Assembly: GCA_016870615.1 (NCBI GenBank)
Contig: VGAZ01000009.1
Coordinates: forward strand, 1 to 34,177
From: Actinomycetota bacterium
GTDB taxonomy: Bacteria; Actinomycetota; Humimicrobiia; Humimicrobiales; Humimicrobiaceae
Length of the DNA stretch: 34,177 nucleotides
Reading direction: 5' to 3'
Part shown: positions 17,288 to 28,449 of the stretch, piece after piece
How positions within the stretch are numbered: position 1 is the first letter of the stretch
How the letters are laid out: every line of letters begins with the position of its first letter
Notes under the pieces: generated by a model
What the model saw: only the letters and a program-made list of their open reading frames with translations
The model's database searches: none
What the model was told of the DNA's origin: nothing
Made by a program: the position numbers and the translations under genes

Positions 17288-17524
17288 TTACGTGATGAAT
17301 TCAAGGATTTTTTCTTTTTCTTTATCAGTAAAATCATTGCCATACATCCGCAAAAAAACATGCTTTTTTAAATCTCCGTCTCCGTATTTTTCCCTGATTC
17401 CGCAAACCATGATTTCTAAAGACATGCGGGACATGGAAAGGCTCATAAGAAGCCTTTTTTTACCTGGAACTTTCATGAGCATCTCCCGGTAAACTTTTTC
17501 TATAGAGTTTTCTTTATTATTCAT
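17288..17524 (-). CDS. small conserved helical protein paired with a nucleotidyltransferase
   Basis: 78 residues. It overlaps the stop of the upstream nucleotidyltransferase gene by eight bases. The sequence is helical and basic, with YREMLMKVPGKKRLLMSLSM in the N-terminal half and KKHVFLRMYGNDFTDKEKEKI at the C-terminus. I recognise it as a conserved small protein that accompanies this kind of nucleotidyltransferase, but no function is known to me. The arrangement (enzyme gene, then an overlapping small gene) resembles MNT-HEPN modules. It is predicted to be cytosolic, with no signal peptide or membrane helix. Confidence 0.72.
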   Translation of the reverse strand: MNNKENSIEKVYREMLMKVPGKKRLLMSLSMSRMSLEIMVCGIREKYGDGDLKKHVFLRMYGNDFTDKEKEKILEFIT

Positions 17525-18053
17525 TTATAACTTCCCTTAGCAGTTTGCCTGCGCCCAGTTTAGCGGCCCAGTTTTTTATGTAATTTAAGTCAGTGTTTTC
17601 TTTCAGCAGGTTTTTAACATCATTTAGCTGCATTTCTGAATGACTGTCTTTTGCCCATATTAATTTTGATATTATGAGGTCTTCAATGCTTACAATATAA
17701 ATAAAATCACTGTTAAGCTTAAACCGTTTTCTGCGGCCAAACTCTTCTTTTCTATACTCTGTGTCTTTGCGGATTATAAAGTCAACTTTTATTAACTCTG
17801 TTAAATGTATTATCTTGAACATGCCTTTTTGGTTAATTGATGATTTTATCATTTCCTTGCTGATATAATAACTATCCGAAAAAACATTATAGAATTTATC
17901 AATTTCGGCAATTTCAACAACAATGTCTATGTCGCGTGTCATTCGGGGTATTGAATAATATCCCATAGCAATTGAGCCTGTAAGCATATATGGTATTTTA
18001 TTTGAGTTGAGTTTTTTAACAACACTTTTTAAAACAGCCAGTTCATCAATCAT
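17517..18053 (-). CDS. nucleotidyltransferase (Pol-beta fold, DUF6036-like)
   Basis: 178 residues from ATG 18053 (MIDELAVLKSVV). The frame is open to 18128 but the extra N-terminus is not domain-like. The catalytic signature GSIAMGYYSIPRMTRDIDIV (GSx10DxD type) lies near residues 26-45, and a second acidic strand, VDFIIRK, lies near 90. The later VSIEDLIISKLIWAK segment is typical of AbiEii/DUF6036-like nucleotidyltransferases. Its stop lies inside the following small gene. This looks like the enzyme of a two-gene module, possibly toxin-antitoxin-like, whose partner is the small helical protein. The start has only AAAGA upstream and is the least certain part. Confidence 0.8.
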   Translation of the reverse strand: MIDELAVLKSVVKKLNSNKIPYMLTGSIAMGYYSIPRMTRDIDIVVEIAEIDKFYNVFSDSYYISKEMIKSSINQKGMFKIIHLTELIKVDFIIRKDTEYRKEEFGRRKRFKLNSDFIYIVSIEDLIISKLIWAKDSHSEMQLNDVKNLLKENTDLNYIKNWAAKLGAGKLLREVINE

Positions 18054-18149
18054 ATTCTTTAATGCATAAGCAAATTTACATAATTTTAAATTTAATATTT
18101 TATATAAATAATTATACAACCATGCCAAATTATTGCCATTTTCAATTTT

Positions 18150-18618: not shown

Positions 18619-19554
18619 TTACAGACCAAATAAAACACGCGCAGTTTTTTTTGGGTCATGGCGGACAAATTCTTTTGAACATAAAATATCTTCTTTTATT
18701 ATTTTTACCCTTCCCGGCAGGCTGCTGCTGTCATCAATGACAATATATGAGTTTTTTGCAGCATGTTTTGTAAGCAGTTTTCCGGACACAGGAGCAGTAT
18801 TTAATATAAGGTAGTCAATATTGCCTCCAAGATATTTTTCCACCATAAAAAAGTGGTCAGATACCTTATAATTATCTGTTTCTCCCGGCTGAGTCATAAT
18901 ATTGCATATGTATATTTTAACTGCTTTTGATTTGCTTACAGCATGGGCAACGCCCTTTACCAAAAGATTGGGTATAATGCTTGAGAACAGGCTTCCGGGC
19001 CCAAGAATAATAATATCTGCTTCACTGCATGCTTTTATTACCCCGGGATATGCCTCAGGTTCCCAGGGGTCAAGGAAAACCTCTTTTATTGAGCCATGGT
19101 GATTTATAATTTTAGTCTGGCCCAGCACTCTTGAACCGTCCTCAAATACTGCTCCAAGCACAATGTTTTCTGTTGTTGATGGCAGCACCCTGCCTTTTAT
19201 GGACAGGATATTGCTTGCTTCAAGTATTCCTTTTGCAAAACTTCCAGTAATATCTGCCATTGCTGTAATAAAAAGGTTGCCAAATGAATGGCCGCTTAAG
19301 CTGGATTTGCCTTTAAACCTGTATTGAAAAAGTTCCGGCATGAGCGAATCCGCCTCAGCAAGAGAAACTATGCAGTTTCTTATGTCGCCCGGCGGGGGCA
19401 TATTATAATCCTTCCTTAATCTGCCGGAACTGCCGCCATCATCAGTAACGGTAACAATTGCAGTTATATCATCTGCAAAATCCTTTATGCCGGCAAGTAT
19501 GGTTGAAAGACCTGTGCCGCCGCCAATGCCTGCAGTTTTAAGATTTTTTATCAT
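18619..19554 (-). CDS. yvcK: YvcK/GlmR family UDP-GlcNAc-binding regulator
   Basis: 311 residues, complete. The family signature is GIGGGTGLSTIL (9-20), then VTVTDDGGSSGRLR, PPGDIRNCI, SGHSFGNLFI, the STTENIVLGAVFEDG block, and GPGSLFSSIIPNLLV. In Bacillus subtilis the protein binds UDP-GlcNAc and stimulates GlmS to balance carbon flow into cell-wall precursors; the same is plausible here. The gene lies beside nagB (divergent, 130 bases) and close to glmM, so the locus is an amino-sugar cluster. A TATAAT-like element is present upstream on the minus strand. Confidence 0.93.
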   Translation of the reverse strand: MIKNLKTAGIGGGTGLSTILAGIKDFADDITAIVTVTDDGGSSGRLRKDYNMPPPGDIRNCIVSLAEADSLMPELFQYRFKGKSSLSGHSFGNLFITAMADITGSFAKGILEASNILSIKGRVLPSTTENIVLGAVFEDGSRVLGQTKIINHHGSIKEVFLDPWEPEAYPGVIKACSEADIIILGPGSLFSSIIPNLLVKGVAHAVSKSKAVKIYICNIMTQPGETDNYKVSDHFFMVEKYLGGNIDYLILNTAPVSGKLLTKHAAKNSYIVIDDSSSLPGRVKIIKEDILCSKEFVRHDPKKTARVLFGL

Positions 19555-19643
19555 ATTAAAATATTTCTTCTATATTTACATTTTATTATATAGAATATAA
19601 TGAAATATCAAAATATCCTTTAAATTTATTTTATAAATAACAG

Positions 19644-19654
19644 GGGAAATTCCC
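19644..19654. promoter_or_regulatory. short palindrome in the nagB/yvcK intergenic region
   Basis: GGGAA-A-TTCCC, a perfect inverted repeat with one central base, lies 31 bases upstream of the nagB start, just after a TATAAA-like hexamer. It would be well placed for a repressor of nagB. Regulator unknown. Confidence 0.3.
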
Positions 19655-19684
19655 AGTATTTAAGCAATATTTTAAGGAGAGCGC

Positions 19685-20461
19685 ATGGAAATAATAATCA
19701 GGAAGGACTATGGGCAGATGAGCATATCTGCCGCCGAAATTATTGCAGGGCTTGTAAAAGACAAGCCGGATTGTGTAATAGGGCTTGCAACCGGAAGTAC
19801 ACCAATAGCTACCTACAGGCATCTTATACACCTGCATAAAGAGCAGGGGCTTGATTTTTCAAATGTAAAGACCTTTAACCTTGACGAGTACCTTGGCATA
19901 GGAATAGATTTGGGCAGGCCTTATGAAACTGACCAGAGTTATGCAAGATTTATGCATGAAGAACTGTTCAAGCATATAAATATTAAAAAAGAAAATATAC
20001 ATATTCCCGACGGGCTGGCAAAAGAACCTGAAAAATTCTGCGCATGGTATGAGGAAGAAATAAAAAAAGCCGGCGGTATTGATTTGCAGCTTCTGGGAAT
20101 AGGGGGAGACGGGCACCTTGCTTTTAATGAGCCCGGTTCATCACTTTTTTCTAGGACAAGGGTACAGGCCCTGGCAAAGCAGACACTGGATGATAATTTT
20201 GAAAGTTTTTACAGCAAAGCAAATGTAAAAAGGGAAGATATGCCCCATTATGCCATCACTATGGGGGTCGGGACAATACTTGAATCAAAACATGCCTTAA
20301 TGATTGCCAGCGGAGCTAAAAAGGCAGGGATTATAGCAGAGGCGCTTGAAGGATGCGTTACATCAAAAGTAACAGCATCTGCCCTGCAGCTTCATCCCGG
20401 CAGGGTGACTGTCATGCTCGATGAAGGGGCATCATCAAAGCTGACATGGAGCATTAACTGA
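19685..20461 (+). CDS. nagB: glucosamine-6-phosphate deaminase
   Basis: 258 residues, preceded by AAGGAGA. The family motifs are complete: LATGSTPIATYRHL (35-47), FNLDEYLG with Asp67, and GIGGDGHLAFNEPGSS with Asp142, His144 and Glu149 as catalytic residues. NagB interconverts glucosamine-6-phosphate and fructose-6-phosphate plus ammonia. In most bacteria it degrades amino sugars. Here, beside yvcK and glmM and with no glmS or nagA in view, it could also act in the biosynthetic direction; that is inference. It is divergent from yvcK and convergent with the glmM operon. Confidence 0.95.
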   Translation: MEIIIRKDYGQMSISAAEIIAGLVKDKPDCVIGLATGSTPIATYRHLIHLHKEQGLDFSNVKTFNLDEYLGIGIDLGRPYETDQSYARFMHEELFKHINIKKENIHIPDGLAKEPEKFCAWYEEEIKKAGGIDLQLLGIGGDGHLAFNEPGSSLFSRTRVQALAKQTLDDNFESFYSKANVKREDMPHYAITMGVGTILESKHALMIASGAKKAGIIAEALEGCVTSKVTASALQLHPGRVTVMLDEGASSKLTWSIN

Positions 20462-20516
20462 TATCCGGGTAAATCAATAGATTTAAGATAGCTGAAAACT
20501 TTACTGGCAAAGAAAA

Positions 20517-21434
20517 TTAATAAATTTCCTCGGTTTCTTCTTTTGTATAGAAGAGATTCTTATACTCTTCCTGGTCAAGCGTGCCCTCATTATTTAAAAG
20601 ATATCCCCAGGCATCTTTTCTCCTGGCAAACGCAATTTCTTCAAGTTTTTTAAGCTTTTCAGTTATTTTCTGTTTTGCCATCATATCTTTTAATTTATTA
20701 AACAAATCAATGCTGCCAAAAACAAATATGCCCTCGTCAAGGATTTTTGAAGCAACCATATGTTCAAAAGTGTCGAAATTCAGTTGTTCTGCCACCCTTT
20801 GAATATCTTTAATTATATAATCTATTTCTTCCCTGTATGCAGGATTTTTAAGCAAATAGTATTTTTCTTCATAAATAGAATTGTCCAGCTTTGAAATTAT
20901 GCCATCATCAAGCCCGCTGGTTATTATTATAATATCAAGATCAGAACCTCTTACTATTTCTCCCGTTGACGGCTCCGGCCGAAGCTCAGCATGAGCCATA
21001 TTGTAAACTATATCACCTGCAAGTATAAAAGCTGCTCTTTCCATGATTTGCCGGCGGTATTTTTGTGAATTTACAATTCTTGATATTAGTTCTTTTGAAA
21101 GCTCAAGTTTGTCTTTGCTTATAATCATAATCTTATCTGCGAGTGCTTCAGCTTTTTTATTAACTTGCAGATAATCTGTTTTTAAACCTGCAACAGTGTA
21201 TGTGAGAAATTCGCGCATTATTGAGGGTGAAAGCCTTGCAAAACCGTCAACCCGTTTATCAAGCCTCAGGTATTTATTGCCAATGATTTTTACAATTATG
21301 CCTGGAGAAATGTTGCAAATGCGCCAAATTAAAAGAGCATCCTGCCCGACATTATCAATTATCTCTTTTCCTCTTAAGGGCCCGCTCTTTTTTAAAAGGT
21401 TAATTATTTTATCTATTACTTCCGGTGTTTGCAT
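20517..21434 (-). CDS. uncharacterised NTase-like protein in the glmM operon
   Basis: 305 residues. An N-terminal winged-helix-like segment (about 1-80, with LLKKSGPLRGKEIIDNVG) is followed by a helical linker. Then comes a segment containing GEIVRGSDLDIIIIT (159-173), whose GSDLDI is a nucleotidyltransferase (Pol-beta-like) metal-binding motif. The C-terminal part (about 230-305) is helical. I recall similar conserved hypothetical proteins but no characterised member. It starts six bases after the glmM stop, so it is co-transcribed with glmM and the upstream LbH gene. A DNA-binding plus nucleotidyl-transfer role is conceivable, but no substrate is suggested by the sequence. Confidence 0.7.
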   Translation of the reverse strand: MQTPEVIDKIINLLKKSGPLRGKEIIDNVGQDALLIWRICNISPGIIVKIIGNKYLRLDKRVDGFARLSPSIMREFLTYTVAGLKTDYLQVNKKAEALADKIMIISKDKLELSKELISRIVNSQKYRRQIMERAAFILAGDIVYNMAHAELRPEPSTGEIVRGSDLDIIIITSGLDDGIISKLDNSIYEEKYYLLKNPAYREEIDYIIKDIQRVAEQLNFDTFEHMVASKILDEGIFVFGSIDLFNKLKDMMAKQKITEKLKKLEEIAFARRKDAWGYLLNNEGTLDQEEYKNLFYTKEETEEIY

Positions 21435-21440
21435 AAATTA

Positions 21441-22790
21441 CTAACCCAGGTTATTTTTTATGGCCTGGGCAACTGATGCAGCCAGCATCCCTGTTTCTTC
21501 TTCAGTGGGGCCCTCGACCATAACCCGGCACATAGCCTGTGTGCCTGAATACCTTACAAGGACCCTTCCGGAATCTGACAGTTCTTTTTCCGCTTTTTTA
21601 ATTGAGGCGGTTATTTCCGGGTAATCCTCAAGAGGTGGTTTGCTTTTAACATTCACATTAATTGTAACCTGCGGAAATACCTGCATTATTTTGGCAAGCT
21701 CCGAAAGAGGCTTGTTTTCATTTTTTAAAACATAAAGAAGCTGGAGAGCAGAAAGTATTCCGTCACCTGTAGTGTGGTGGTCAAGAAATATGATATGCCC
21801 CGACTCTTCACCCCCGATTATTGCATCTTTTTTCTGCATCTCTTCAAGTACATACCTGTCGCCCACTTTAGCCTGTACATGCTCTATGTCCATTTTTTTA
21901 AGTGCTACTGATAATCCCATATTGCTCATAATTGTTGTAACAAGAATATTGTTTTTAAGCCTGTTTTCCTGTTTTAACCTGGCAGCGCAGATTGCAAGAA
22001 CCTGGTCACCGCTTAAAGTTTCGCCTTTTTCATCAACAACAATCAGCCTGTCCCCGTCACCATCAAAAGCAAGCCCTATATCTGCTTTTGTTTGCAGTAC
22101 TTTTTGCGCAAGACCCTCTGGGTGCAGGGCACCGCAGTTTAAGTTTATATTCATTCCGTCAGGATTTACATTAAGGGAGGTTACCTGGGCCCTCATTTCT
22201 TTAAACAGCAGCGGAGCAACCTTATACGTAGCCCCGTTTGCGCAGTCCAGTACTATTTTCATATTTTCAAGATTAAGGTTTCTTGGCAGGGAATTTTTTA
22301 AAAACACTATATACCGGCCAAGGGCATCGTCTTCCCTGTAAGCCCTTCCAAGTTCCTCAGGTAAAGCAACTTTTTCGCTCATCCAGTCTGAAAGTATGAG
22401 CTCTTCCATTTTCAGTTCCTGCTCATCAGTTAATTTAAAACCTTCTTTTGAAAATATCTTTATTCCATTATCTTCAAAAGGATTGTGTGAGGCAGAAATC
22501 ATTATCCCTGCATCTGCATCTATATTAGTTGTTATAAATGCAACGCCTGGAGTGGGAATCGGCCCTATTATAATTGCATCAGCGCCCATTGAAGTTATTC
22601 CTGCAACCAGGGCATTTTCCAGCATATATCCTGAAAGCCTTGTGTCCTTTCCAATTGCTATTTTGGGCCTGTGGCCTTTCTTTTTTAAAATATAAGTTAC
22701 AGCCTGGCCTATTTTTATTGCCATTTCAGCTGTCATAGGATATTTATTTGCCACACCCCTTACACCATCCGTACCAAATAACTGGCCCAT
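21441..22790 (-). CDS. glmM: phosphoglucosamine mutase
   Basis: 449 residues, complete. The catalytic serine loop is ISASHNP with Ser101. The metal-binding loop is DGDGDR (243-248). The sugar-binding region is GEESGH and the phosphate-binding region RYSGTQAMCRVMVEG near the C-terminus. The N-terminal LFGTDGVRG is the usual GlmM start. GlmM converts glucosamine-6-phosphate to glucosamine-1-phosphate on the way to UDP-GlcNAc. It follows the GlmU-like LbH gene by three bases and precedes the NTase-like gene by six, forming a tight three-gene operon. Confidence 0.96.
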   Translation of the reverse strand: MGQLFGTDGVRGVANKYPMTAEMAIKIGQAVTYILKKKGHRPKIAIGKDTRLSGYMLENALVAGITSMGADAIIIGPIPTPGVAFITTNIDADAGIMISASHNPFEDNGIKIFSKEGFKLTDEQELKMEELILSDWMSEKVALPEELGRAYREDDALGRYIVFLKNSLPRNLNLENMKIVLDCANGATYKVAPLLFKEMRAQVTSLNVNPDGMNINLNCGALHPEGLAQKVLQTKADIGLAFDGDGDRLIVVDEKGETLSGDQVLAICAARLKQENRLKNNILVTTIMSNMGLSVALKKMDIEHVQAKVGDRYVLEEMQKKDAIIGGEESGHIIFLDHHTTGDGILSALQLLYVLKNENKPLSELAKIMQVFPQVTINVNVKSKPPLEDYPEITASIKKAEKELSDSGRVLVRYSGTQAMCRVMVEGPTEEETGMLAASVAQAIKNNLG

Positions 22791-22793
22791 CTT

Positions 22794-23600
22794 TTATTTC
22801 CTTTCTGCAAGTTCATGAATCTGTTTTAATTTTATGACTGTATTGGGAGGGTAATAGCCCCTTGCTGTTGTGTTCGGGTAAAGAAGCACGTCCCTGCCCA
22901 GTAAACTGCCGGGAGCAGTAACGCTGTTGCATCCGGTCTCAACGCCATCAGCAAATATTGCGCCAAATTTTCTCAGTCCTGTCTCATATTTTTTACCACC
23001 AATATTTAATATTATTTTTGATTCAATAATTTTTAAATTTGCAAGTTTTGTGCCTGCCCCCAGATTGACTTTGCCCAGTATGCTGTCTCCTATGTAAGCA
23101 AAATGGCCCGCCTTGCTTGCGCCAAGCATTACTGCTGTTTTCATTTCAGTTGTGTGGCCTATTACGCATTTATTTCCAATAATCACATTTCCCCTTATAT
23201 ATGCGCCCTGTCTTATCTCATTGTAATCATTAATTATTGTCGGTCCCTTTATGAGCGCCCCGGATTCAATAATATTGCCGCTGCCAATATAAATATCATT
23301 ATCCATAAAAACTGCGCCTGCATATATTATCGAGGCGCCCTGAAGCGTCTGCCCGTCTTTTGTAACAGTATTATTCACTGTATCTATTTCAAAACCTGAT
23401 TTAATGACTTTGCCTTCATATATAATCATATCCTTTGCTACAAATGACCCGTCCTGCCTCAATCCTGAAACATTTGGCGCAATATTATCTTTTATATATC
23501 CCTTAATATTTTTTAAGCCATCCCATACATATTCAGCATTTTTAAAAAGCTCCTTTAACTTGTTGCTTTCAAGATCAAAAAAATCTTTTGCTTCCAGCAT
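22794..23600 (-). CDS. left-handed beta-helix acyltransferase, GlmU C-domain-like
   Basis: 268 residues. The first 100 residues are a mixed N-terminal part. From about 105 onward there are hexapeptide repeats of the left-handed beta-helix, with IRGNVIIGNKCVIGHTTEMK and LGASKAGHFAYIGDSILGKV. These correspond to the acetyltransferase domain of GlmU, and the His in KAGHFAYIGD matches the catalytic base of GlmU. There is no uridylyltransferase (Rossmann) domain, so it is not a full GlmU. I infer that it acetylates glucosamine-1-phosphate made by GlmM, with a separate uridylyltransferase elsewhere. It heads the three-gene operon with glmM. An AAGGGG ribosome binding site precedes the ATG. Confidence 0.85.
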   Translation of the reverse strand: MLEAKDFFDLESNKLKELFKNAEYVWDGLKNIKGYIKDNIAPNVSGLRQDGSFVAKDMIIYEGKVIKSGFEIDTVNNTVTKDGQTLQGASIIYAGAVFMDNDIYIGSGNIIESGALIKGPTIINDYNEIRQGAYIRGNVIIGNKCVIGHTTEMKTAVMLGASKAGHFAYIGDSILGKVNLGAGTKLANLKIIESKIILNIGGKKYETGLRKFGAIFADGVETGCNSVTAPGSLLGRDVLLYPNTTARGYYPPNTVIKLKQIHELAERK

Positions 23601-26940: not shown

Positions 26941-28449
26941 CTATTCAGCTGCAAGGCTTCTTAAATGCATGCCGGCAAGCAGGTACCCTACCACATATTC
27001 AAACATCCCCGGGTATTTTACAGCGGCCCACAAAAGAAGCAGCCAGTAATACTTCCTGCCGCTGCCCTTAATACCAAGAAACCATACCGAGCCAAACAGC
27101 GCCCTTATCTGGTATTTTTCAAGTTTTAAACTGAAAGCTTTTCTTTTTACAGGCTTGAATTCCCTGATAAAGGTCTTAATCCTCTCATTGTAGGCCCTCG
27201 GATTATAAATTGTGTCAAGTATTTTTTTATATCCTTTAAACAGTGTCGCTGTGTCCATTTTAGGAATAAAATTTAATGTGGATTTAAACGTATTATTTGC
27301 TGAAGACTCGCTTATTATCCTGTTATTTTCTTCCAGTCTTTTATGCAGCCTGGTTTTGGGCAAAGCAGTTAAAAGCCCCACCATTGCAAATATTATGCCG
27401 CTGCCCTGTATAAAATCTATCTGCCTCTGGAAAATCGAGGGGGTATCGCTGTCAAAGCCGACAATAAAGCCTCCCTGCACTTCAAGACCTGAGTTCTGTA
27501 ATTTTTTAACGGAGCCTACAAGATCCCTTTTACTGTTTTGTTGTTTGCAGCATTCCTCAAGGCCCTTCTCGTCTGGAGTTTCTATACCGATAAAAACTTT
27601 TCCAAATCCCGCATCCACCATCAGTTTTATAAGCTCCTCATCATCTGAAAGGTTAATTGATACCTGGGTGTTAAAAACAAAGGGGTATTTCCTCTCTTGC
27701 TGCCATTTTATTATTGCAGGCAGCACTTCTTTTTTTAATTTTGATTTATTGCCGATAAGATTATCATCAACAAAAAACACACTGCTTCGCCAGCCGGCCG
27801 TATAAAGCGCATCAAGCTCTGCGATTACCTGCAGGGTAGTCTTTGTGCGTGGAAATCTTCCGTTTAGAATCACTACATCGCAGAATTCACAATCAAATGG
27901 ACAACCCCTTGAATACTGCAGGCTCATGGAAAAATAAGCTGAAATATTTATAAGTTTCCATTCAGGAACCGGGGAAAGGGATATATCAGGAAAACCGGGT
28001 GCCTCATAGATTTTTTTTAATGAGCCCTGCTTTACATCTTTAATAAAGCTGTCCATAACATTTTCAGCTTCACCTAAAAACACGTGATCAACCTGGCTAT
28101 GCTCTATAATGCCTGATGAAAATAGCGGCCCGCCTGCCACTACTGGTTTTTGCGCCTGTTTTACTCTTTTTATTATTGCCATTGCAGACTCTTTCTGCAC
28201 TATCATTCCGCTTATAAATACATAATCCGCCCACTCAATATCGGATTGATTAAGCCTGGTTGTGTTTGTATCAATAAGCTTCTTGTTCCAGCTTTTGGGC
28301 AGCATTGCAGATATGGTCAGGAGCCCGAGAGGCGGGTATGCCGCTCTCCTGCCCAGCACCCTCATTACATTTTCAAAACTCCAGAAAGTTTTTAAATACT
28401 GAGGGTAAACAAGCAATATATTTTTTATATCATCTTTATCATTTTTCAT
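26941..28449 (-). CDS. B12-binding radical SAM protein (DUF4070 type)
   Basis: 502 residues. The N-terminal cobalamin-binding-like domain (about 1-140) has RAAYPPLGLLTISAMLP and VVAGGPLF. The radical SAM domain has the CX3CX2C iron-sulfur motif CPFDCEFC with Cys183, Cys187 and Cys190. Downstream, VFFVDDNLIGN, GIETPDEKGLEECCKQQN and EVQGGFIVGFDSD are features of the HpnJ/DUF4070 type. Such enzymes modify lipids, peptides or small molecules; the substrate here is unknown. The C-terminus is hydrophobic (about 455-495). It appears to be a single-gene unit. The gap of 270 bases upstream (28450-28719) is AT-rich with no gene. Confidence 0.88.
   Translation of the reverse strand: MKNDKDDIKNILLVYPQYLKTFWSFENVMRVLGRRAAYPPLGLLTISAMLPKSWNKKLIDTNTTRLNQSDIEWADYVFISGMIVQKESAMAIIKRVKQAQKPVVAGGPLFSSGIIEHSQVDHVFLGEAENVMDSFIKDVKQGSLKKIYEAPGFPDISLSPVPEWKLINISAYFSMSLQYSRGCPFDCEFCDVVILNGRFPRTKTTLQVIAELDALYTAGWRSSVFFVDDNLIGNKSKLKKEVLPAIIKWQQERKYPFVFNTQVSINLSDDEELIKLMVDAGFGKVFIGIETPDEKGLEECCKQQNSKRDLVGSVKKLQNSGLEVQGGFIVGFDSDTPSIFQRQIDFIQGSGIIFAMVGLLTALPKTRLHKRLEENNRIISESSANNTFKSTLNFIPKMDTATLFKGYKKILDTIYNPRAYNERIKTFIREFKPVKRKAFSLKLEKYQIRALFGSVWFLGIKGSGRKYYWLLLLWAAVKYPGMFEYVVGYLLAGMHLRSLAAE

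Follow-up and report, generated by a model that had tools for sequence, protein, structure and literature searches.

A stand-alone LbH protein encoded directly upstream of glmM probably takes over the acetyltransferase step of truncated GlmU in the family Humimicrobiaceae

In textbooks, bacteria make UDP-N-acetylglucosamine (UDP-GlcNAc) with the bifunctional enzyme GlmU, which is also a studied antibacterial target. ST0452 of Sulfolobus tokodaii (family TIGR03992) is a bifunctional sugar-1-phosphate nucleotidylyltransferase/acetyltransferase with a C-terminal acetyltransferase domain of the left-handed beta-helix (LbH) fold. Eukaryotes place acetylation and uridylylation on separate proteins, GNA1 and a UAP/AGX pyrophosphorylase, of which GNA1 is an enzyme of the GNAT fold that acts on glucosamine-6-phosphate (GlcN-6-P) before the mutase. 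GlmR (YvcK) of Listeria is reported to be an accessory uridyltransferase, for which acetyltransferase activity was not detected (PMC10128056). Here we describe a locus of an Actinomycetota bacterium of the family Humimicrobiaceae (assembly GCA_016870615.1; 2.13 Mb, 93% complete, 235 contigs), located in contig VGAZ01000009.1 (C9 in our numbering), positions 1 to 34,177; the window is this whole stretch of 34,177 nucleotides. The locus encodes an LbH protein, here simply LbH, directly before glmM, and the same genome encodes a GlmU that is C-terminally truncated. LbH is very probably a stand-alone glucosamine-1-phosphate (GlcN-1-P) acetyltransferase that has repeatedly displaced the corresponding domain of GlmU, with the short GlmU as a dedicated uridylyltransferase and with GlmS and GlmM as ordinary enzymes.

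Set against these systems, the arrangement is a variant of the known pathway and not a new one. The same two reactions are needed as with bifunctional GlmU (TIGR01173), the short protein corresponds to the N-terminal part of that enzyme and six of its acetyltransferase residues are kept in LbH, but two separate genes are used and LbH is closer to the archaeal-type domain. The C-terminal domain of ST0452 is the top match of LbH in both sequence and structure; unlike ST0452, LbH stands alone, has another N-terminal region and differs at two lysines. The eukaryotic route is alike in its separate proteins; it differs in fold, which here is LbH, and in order, since acetylation is here proposed to come after GlmM. 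The yvcK homologue of the locus resembles Listeria GlmR in possible uridyltransferase capacity, which by analogy it may add here; since acetyltransferase activity was not detected for GlmR, it would not replace LbH. No description of a split or truncated GlmU arrangement was found in the titles and abstract beginnings searched, a scope that leaves out subscription papers, so that the arrangement may already be published.

Among NCBIfam models, LbH matches TIGR03992 (Arch_glmU) best, over the C-terminal half of the model (positions 243-391 of 393) and with 141.7 bits, below the cut-off of 292.1 bits for the full-length bifunctional protein; the bifunctional GlmU model TIGR01173 gives only 41.6 bits. 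A Pfam search yielded only hexapeptide/LbH matches and no nucleotidyltransferase (uridylyltransferase) domain, in agreement with an earlier note on the letters of this DNA, which had described the protein as lacking one. LbH aligns to residues 247-388 of ST0452 (PDB 2ggo; expectation value E 3.8e-25), and its residues 1 to about 90 form a different region where ST0452 has the nucleotidyltransferase. The AlphaFold2 model (mean predicted local distance difference test score, pLDDT, 94.6) has the ST0452 entries as top Foldseek matches (2ggo, E 4.8e-10), followed by GlmUs, with several non-GlmU LbH enzymes also among the matches. An alignment of 54 sequences, the LbH of the window and those of 53 of the 80 loci described below, has R136, K154, H166, Y169, N179 and N188 invariant, and these align with R278, K296, H308, Y311, N322 and N331 of ST0452. 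They correspond to R333, K351, H363, Y366, N377 and N386 of Escherichia coli GlmU.

Elsewhere in the genome, a full-length GlmS of 632 amino acids is encoded on contig C6 (TIGR01135, 773.3 bits against a cut-off of 418.05, positions 1-607 of 607), contrary to the earlier note, which held glmS to be absent. The absence of GlmU, also claimed there, is true of the window and untrue of the genome: the sole close GlmU match lies on contig C45 (13.3 kb) in the order glmU-prs-ctc-pth-mfd, the neighbours being named from family models except mfd, which was named from sequence. This is the usual Firmicutes-type position of glmU. The C45 protein stops at 371 amino acids in the interior of the contig and scores 337.9 bits against the TIGR01173 cut-off of 366.85, covering profile positions 2-350 of 452. 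It carries the uridylyltransferase motifs LAAG-x-G-x-RM, PKVLH, QLGTADA, GDTPL, GYGRI and GFND, retains the IRPG and CEIK stretches, and ends before the active-site His/Tyr motif with nothing beyond. Judged by these motifs it is the N-terminal uridylyltransferase domain of GlmU with a helix stump, and so supplies the separate uridylyltransferase for which the earlier note had recommended searching the genome. That note's broader suggestion, an organisation departing from the standard bifunctional GlmU, is borne out by the acetyltransferase part residing in a separate LbH and by the cut GlmU on C45. It had named full copies of GlmS and GlmU elsewhere as evidence to the contrary; GlmS is such a copy, and GlmU, with its C-terminal part missing, is not.

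Thirty-five genomes of the family were searched for GlmU and LbH, and the GlmU frames of 34 were read to a stop or a contig end; 31 could be scored. The acetyltransferase part of GlmU is defective in 12 (G000, G019, G047, G104, G136, G168, G212, G243, G252, G253, G254, G260) and intact in 19 (G004, G071, G082, G115, G125, G147, G158, G190, G201, G222, G232, G246, G247, G248, G249, G250, G256, G257, G259), the motif H-[LIVMF]-x-Y-x-G-[DN] being found in all 19 intact and none of the 12 broken proteins. All 12 genomes with a broken GlmU possess LbH, which is complete in ten and runs off contig ends in two, as a piece of 211 residues in G260 and one of 40 residues (63% identical) in G252, scored positive from this piece alone. 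None of the 19 genomes with an intact GlmU has an intact LbH; G125 has a decayed copy. Fisher's test gives p 7e-9 (12/0 versus 0/19), a statistic that ignores descent. No genome among the 31 lacks both enzymes. Fifteen genomes reach 90% completeness or more with contamination of 5% or less: seven have a broken GlmU and LbH, seven an intact GlmU and no intact LbH, and one (G093) is unscorable. Two assignments carry qualifications. In G252 an internal deletion has removed the His/Tyr stretch of GlmU and left its NYDG part. The GlmU of G147, scored as intact, has Ser for a conserved Arg, and because glmM of this genome is at the edge of a contig, an LbH there could have been missed. The unscored genomes are G255, G258 and G093, with GlmU running off the contig, and G251, with a piece matching positions 388-450 in a 70-codon frame; G258, G093 and G251 show no LbH, and G255 has an LbH fragment. 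Eleven family genomes have a whole or edge-cut LbH and glmM on one contig, and in every one of them LbH is the gene directly upstream of glmM.

Some further observations concern glmM in the family. G255 (loci L155 and L166) has two glmM genes, one 80% identical to that of the window and preceded by an N-terminally truncated LbH, the other 43% identical; the genome could be a mixed bin or one caught with both types. In the related genomes G082, G190 and G201 (89-95% complete) the search gave no glmM that passes the family cut-off, although their relatives G125 and G250 have one; the same holds for G252 and G256 (73% and 79% complete).

The short GlmUs were also considered as artefacts of assembly or contig ends, an explanation that was rejected: the proteins end inside the contig in all 12 defective family cases, their end points differ, and short GlmUs outside the family occur on contigs of 3.2-4.7 Mb (G303, G308, G310). 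A 'truncated GlmU' could easily be mistaken for an artefact or a pseudogene, and the LbH gene for that of an unspecified transferase.

The switch between the two states has occurred repeatedly. An rpoB tree of 34 genomes, 30 of them scored for both traits (G257, with no rpoB match, was left out), requires at least eight changes for each of broken GlmU and LbH. The switch falls within three groups labelled as single genera (g1, g3, g4), and all six independent pairs on starred branches of this tree show opposite differences in the two traits (p 0.031, the two-sided minimum that six pairs can give). The tree of the GlmU N-terminal domain keeps the members of g1, g3 and g4 together broadly as rpoB does, and also has eight changes. 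It rejects a single clade of truncated GlmUs (approximately unbiased test, p-AU 1.3e-45), and with it a single inherited truncation; truncation therefore recurred. The family LbH sequences need two changes on the tree, and a single clade of them is not rejected (p-AU 0.215), so that LbH may have entered the family once or more than once.

The lesions in GlmU are of several kinds (lengths counted from the first motif). The proteins of G253 (247 amino acids) and G254 (263) end without the helix, eight others have 335-389 amino acids with part of the helix, and G243 and G252 bear internal in-frame deletions. Five of the six uridylyltransferase motifs are kept in all 12 broken proteins and the sixth in ten, GINNR replacing GINDR in G136 and G168. 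In unsaturated pairs that include a broken GlmU, the N-terminal domain has a ratio of nonsynonymous to synonymous substitution rates (dN/dS) of 0.13-0.31. For the helix stump it is 0.11-0.21 in such pairs, and 0.07 in two and 0.18 in the third of three intact pairs, at most a weak hint of relaxed constraint.

Sister species show recent lesions in opposite directions. The GlmU of G243 is 96% identical to the intact GlmU of G190, minus 76 codons spanning the active site; GTTCCT stands at both deletion break points, as found in the intact gene, and LbH is complete. In G125, a close relative or sister of G243, GlmU is intact and LbH, still upstream of glmM, lacks two internal segments, the remainder being by eye nearly identical to LbH of G243. 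In G232 a gene that precedes LbH-glmM in G019 and G047, and which reads as methyltransferase-like, sits ahead of glmM, and no LbH was detected in between. Such traces would be expected if the two enzymes had been redundant and one or the other was then lost. In this sense nature has kept, in the 35 family genomes, a record of two enzymes that can stand in for each other and of which sister species have lost opposite ones; these opposite losses make the function of LbH directly testable.

According to the proposed scheme, GlmS would convert fructose-6-phosphate to GlcN-6-P and GlmM would convert this to GlcN-1-P; the stand-alone LbH would then form N-acetylglucosamine-1-phosphate from acetyl-CoA and GlcN-1-P, from which the N-terminal domain of GlmU with its helix stump would make UDP-GlcNAc with UTP. 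LbH would represent an archaeal-type (ST0452-like) acetyltransferase domain in a gene of its own, directly upstream of the glmM whose product is its presumed substrate. Both enzymes in one genome would render the acetyltransferase step redundant, after which a lineage could lose either of them: the acetyltransferase part of GlmU when the protein is truncated or suffers an in-frame deletion, LbH when its gene is deleted or decays. We infer that LbH catalyses this acetylation of GlcN-1-P and that it would be the sole acetyltransferase for the step in the cell. In view of how the two enzymes are distributed, of the lesions in opposite directions and of the neighbouring genes, this is by far the likeliest account.

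To look beyond the family, one genome was scanned for each of 84,980 species. This yielded 296 LbH relatives, and the top 80 were retained; eight of these 80 loci are family genomes again. The taxa on record for the loci include Actinomycetota, Bacillota (many Syntrophomonadaceae), Elusimicrobia, Omnitrophota, Deltaproteobacteria, Nitrospirae, Acidobacteriota, Sumerlaeota and others. Their fetched flanks were searched by tblastn with the proteins of the window, which placed GlmM near LbH at 33 loci (within 100 bp at 29), NagB at 35, the unrecognised protein ORF305 (named for an open reading frame of the window, see below) at 28 and YvcK at four. Six flanks have a GlmS-like match, two of these under 32% identity; the direct order LbH-glmM-glmS occurs at L267 and L274, and about 1.3 kb separates glmM from glmS at L252. 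GlmU was searched in 50 of the 80 LbH-bearing genomes and read to a stop or contig end in 43 outside the family, 38 of which have a GlmU without the His/Tyr motif; one of the 38, G304, gave a distant match (E 1.1e-26) that may not be GlmU. A widespread stand-alone replacement of one GlmU activity would change how UDP-GlcNAc pathways ought to be annotated.

Several observations weigh against this account. The chief reservation at the level of sequence is that K337 and K340 of ST0452 align with S194 and I197 of LbH, neither a lysine nor an invariant column. K392 of E. coli GlmU likewise has no lysine as its equivalent in LbH; K190 and K211 of LbH, invariant in the 54 sequences, lie near the lost ST0452 lysine positions, where any role of theirs is conjectural. 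Within the family, scoring covers 31 of 35 genomes, most of which are incomplete drafts, and no LbH is seen in G258, one of the four unscored genomes, whose GlmU runs into the end of its contig. Beyond it, five of the 43 LbH-bearing genomes keep the GlmU motif (G272, G273, G284 at the edge of a contig, G290, and G299, with a truncated copy besides), the Omnitrophota genomes G292, G294 and G295 (among the 38) keep most of the C-terminal helix, so that loss of activity is less sure, and no scorable GlmU was found in seven of the 50 genomes searched (G268, G270, G271, G283, G298, G301, G306).

A cut GlmU also occurs without LbH. From other Actinomycetota families, 32 genomes with low-scoring GlmU were searched and 16 read further, the other 16 being by table full length, at a contig end or weak. 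The 16 that were read (L318-L328, L331-L333, L337, L338) have a motif-less GlmU that is truncated or internally deleted, with a prs-like frame just downstream in 14 (not shown for G080 and G156). They have no LbH match at E 1e-10, the ten genomes that did give one being others; GlmU truncation therefore does not require this LbH. Another acetyltransferase solution must serve these 16 genomes, and it is possible that they hold a divergent LbH below the E 1e-10 limit. With moderate confidence we regard the acetyltransferase half of GlmU as a replaceable module, which a stand-alone, archaeal-type and glmM-coupled LbH has displaced many times in several phyla, either partner being lost afterwards, with at least one further acetyltransferase in the Actinomycetota that have a cut GlmU and no LbH.

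These 16 genomes bear on the question of substrate as well. LbH might acetylate another amino sugar, for example galactosamine-1-phosphate (GalN-1-P) or a sugar of a surface polysaccharide, with another enzyme performing the acetyltransferase step towards UDP-GlcNAc, as another enzyme can in those 16. The two ST0452 lysines that LbH has not kept fit this reading, as do the several non-GlmU LbH enzymes among the Foldseek matches; LbH-fold acetyltransferases act on many sugars, and ST0452 reportedly uses GalN-1-P as well as GlcN-1-P. We nevertheless consider it improbable, since the reciprocal presence and absence of LbH and the GlmU domain and the opposite lesions of sister species are expected of enzymes that do the same job, and LbH is coupled to glmM.

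Lower still we rate the chance that LbH is an assembly partner that forms one GlmU-like complex with the truncated GlmU, catalysis being shared with the remaining coils. In its favour, ten of the 12 broken GlmUs in the family retain part of the helix, and in the pairs that were compared purifying selection still acts on this stump; against this, G253 and G254 have GlmU without the helix, 13 GlmUs of LbH-bearing genomes outside the family are only 234-266 amino acids long, and LbH is complete, with conserved active-site residues of its own. Complex formation may nevertheless be an additional property of LbH. The suggestion of the earlier note that NagB supplies GlcN-6-P in reverse for want of GlmS has the frequent proximity of nagB to LbH (35 of 80 loci) in its favour and is nonetheless scarcely credible, as a full-length GlmS is present, nothing requires the reversal, and nagB is convergent with the LbH-glmM run and outside it.

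The features of the locus are collected in Table 1; family scores confirm yvcK, nagB, glmM and LbH where the earlier note had placed them, whereas ORF305 goes unmentioned in that note. LbH, glmM and ORF305 follow one another from 23600 to 20517 with gaps of 3 bp and 6 bp, and yvcK is divergent from nagB.

Table 1. Genes of the amino-sugar locus in contig VGAZ01000009.1, positions as in the window
Feature	Position	Strand	Remark
LbH, proposed glucosamine-1-phosphate N-acetyltransferase (268 aa)	22794-23600	-	first gene of LbH-glmM-ORF305 run
glmM, phosphoglucosamine mutase (449 aa)	21441-22790	-	TIGR01455 598.2 bits, above cut-off 447.55
ORF305, unrecognised 305-aa protein	20517-21434	-	6 bp behind glmM
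nagB, glucosamine-6-phosphate deaminase (258 aa)	19685-20461	+	TIGR00502 267.6 bits, above cut-off 236.9
yvcK/glmR, CofD-related UDP-GlcNAc-binding protein (311 aa)	18619-19554	-	TIGR01826 355 bits, cut-off 196

ORF305 has no Pfam match above cut-off and a weak one to NTP_transf_2 (E 0.16). Its AlphaFold2 model (mean pLDDT 92) has the adenylylation domain of GlnE as best Foldseek match (E 2.4e-4) and may be read as an N-terminal winged-helix-like part joined to a nucleotidyltransferase-like fold; G163-S164-D165-x-D167 is invariant across 31 aligned sequences. The protein is possibly a regulator of the UDP-GlcNAc pathway.

Two other regions of the window, both on the minus strand, are recorded here. 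Positions 17288-18128 encode a nucleotidyltransferase-like protein of 203 amino acids, the end of which is overlapped by a few bases by a 78-codon frame; its matches to aminoglycoside adenylyltransferase, DUF2204 and AbiEii are weak and none is above cut-off. Positions 26941-28449 encode a B12-binding radical SAM protein that carries DUF4070 at its C-terminus; models of PhpK-type P-methyltransferases come nearest to it, though with scores far below their cut-offs. RpoB of the genus to which the window belongs (L195, L196, L198; G260, G000, G259) carries an insertion of about 163 residues, which is not in the three other family genomes compared, and its C-terminal tails are also extended in G000 and G260.

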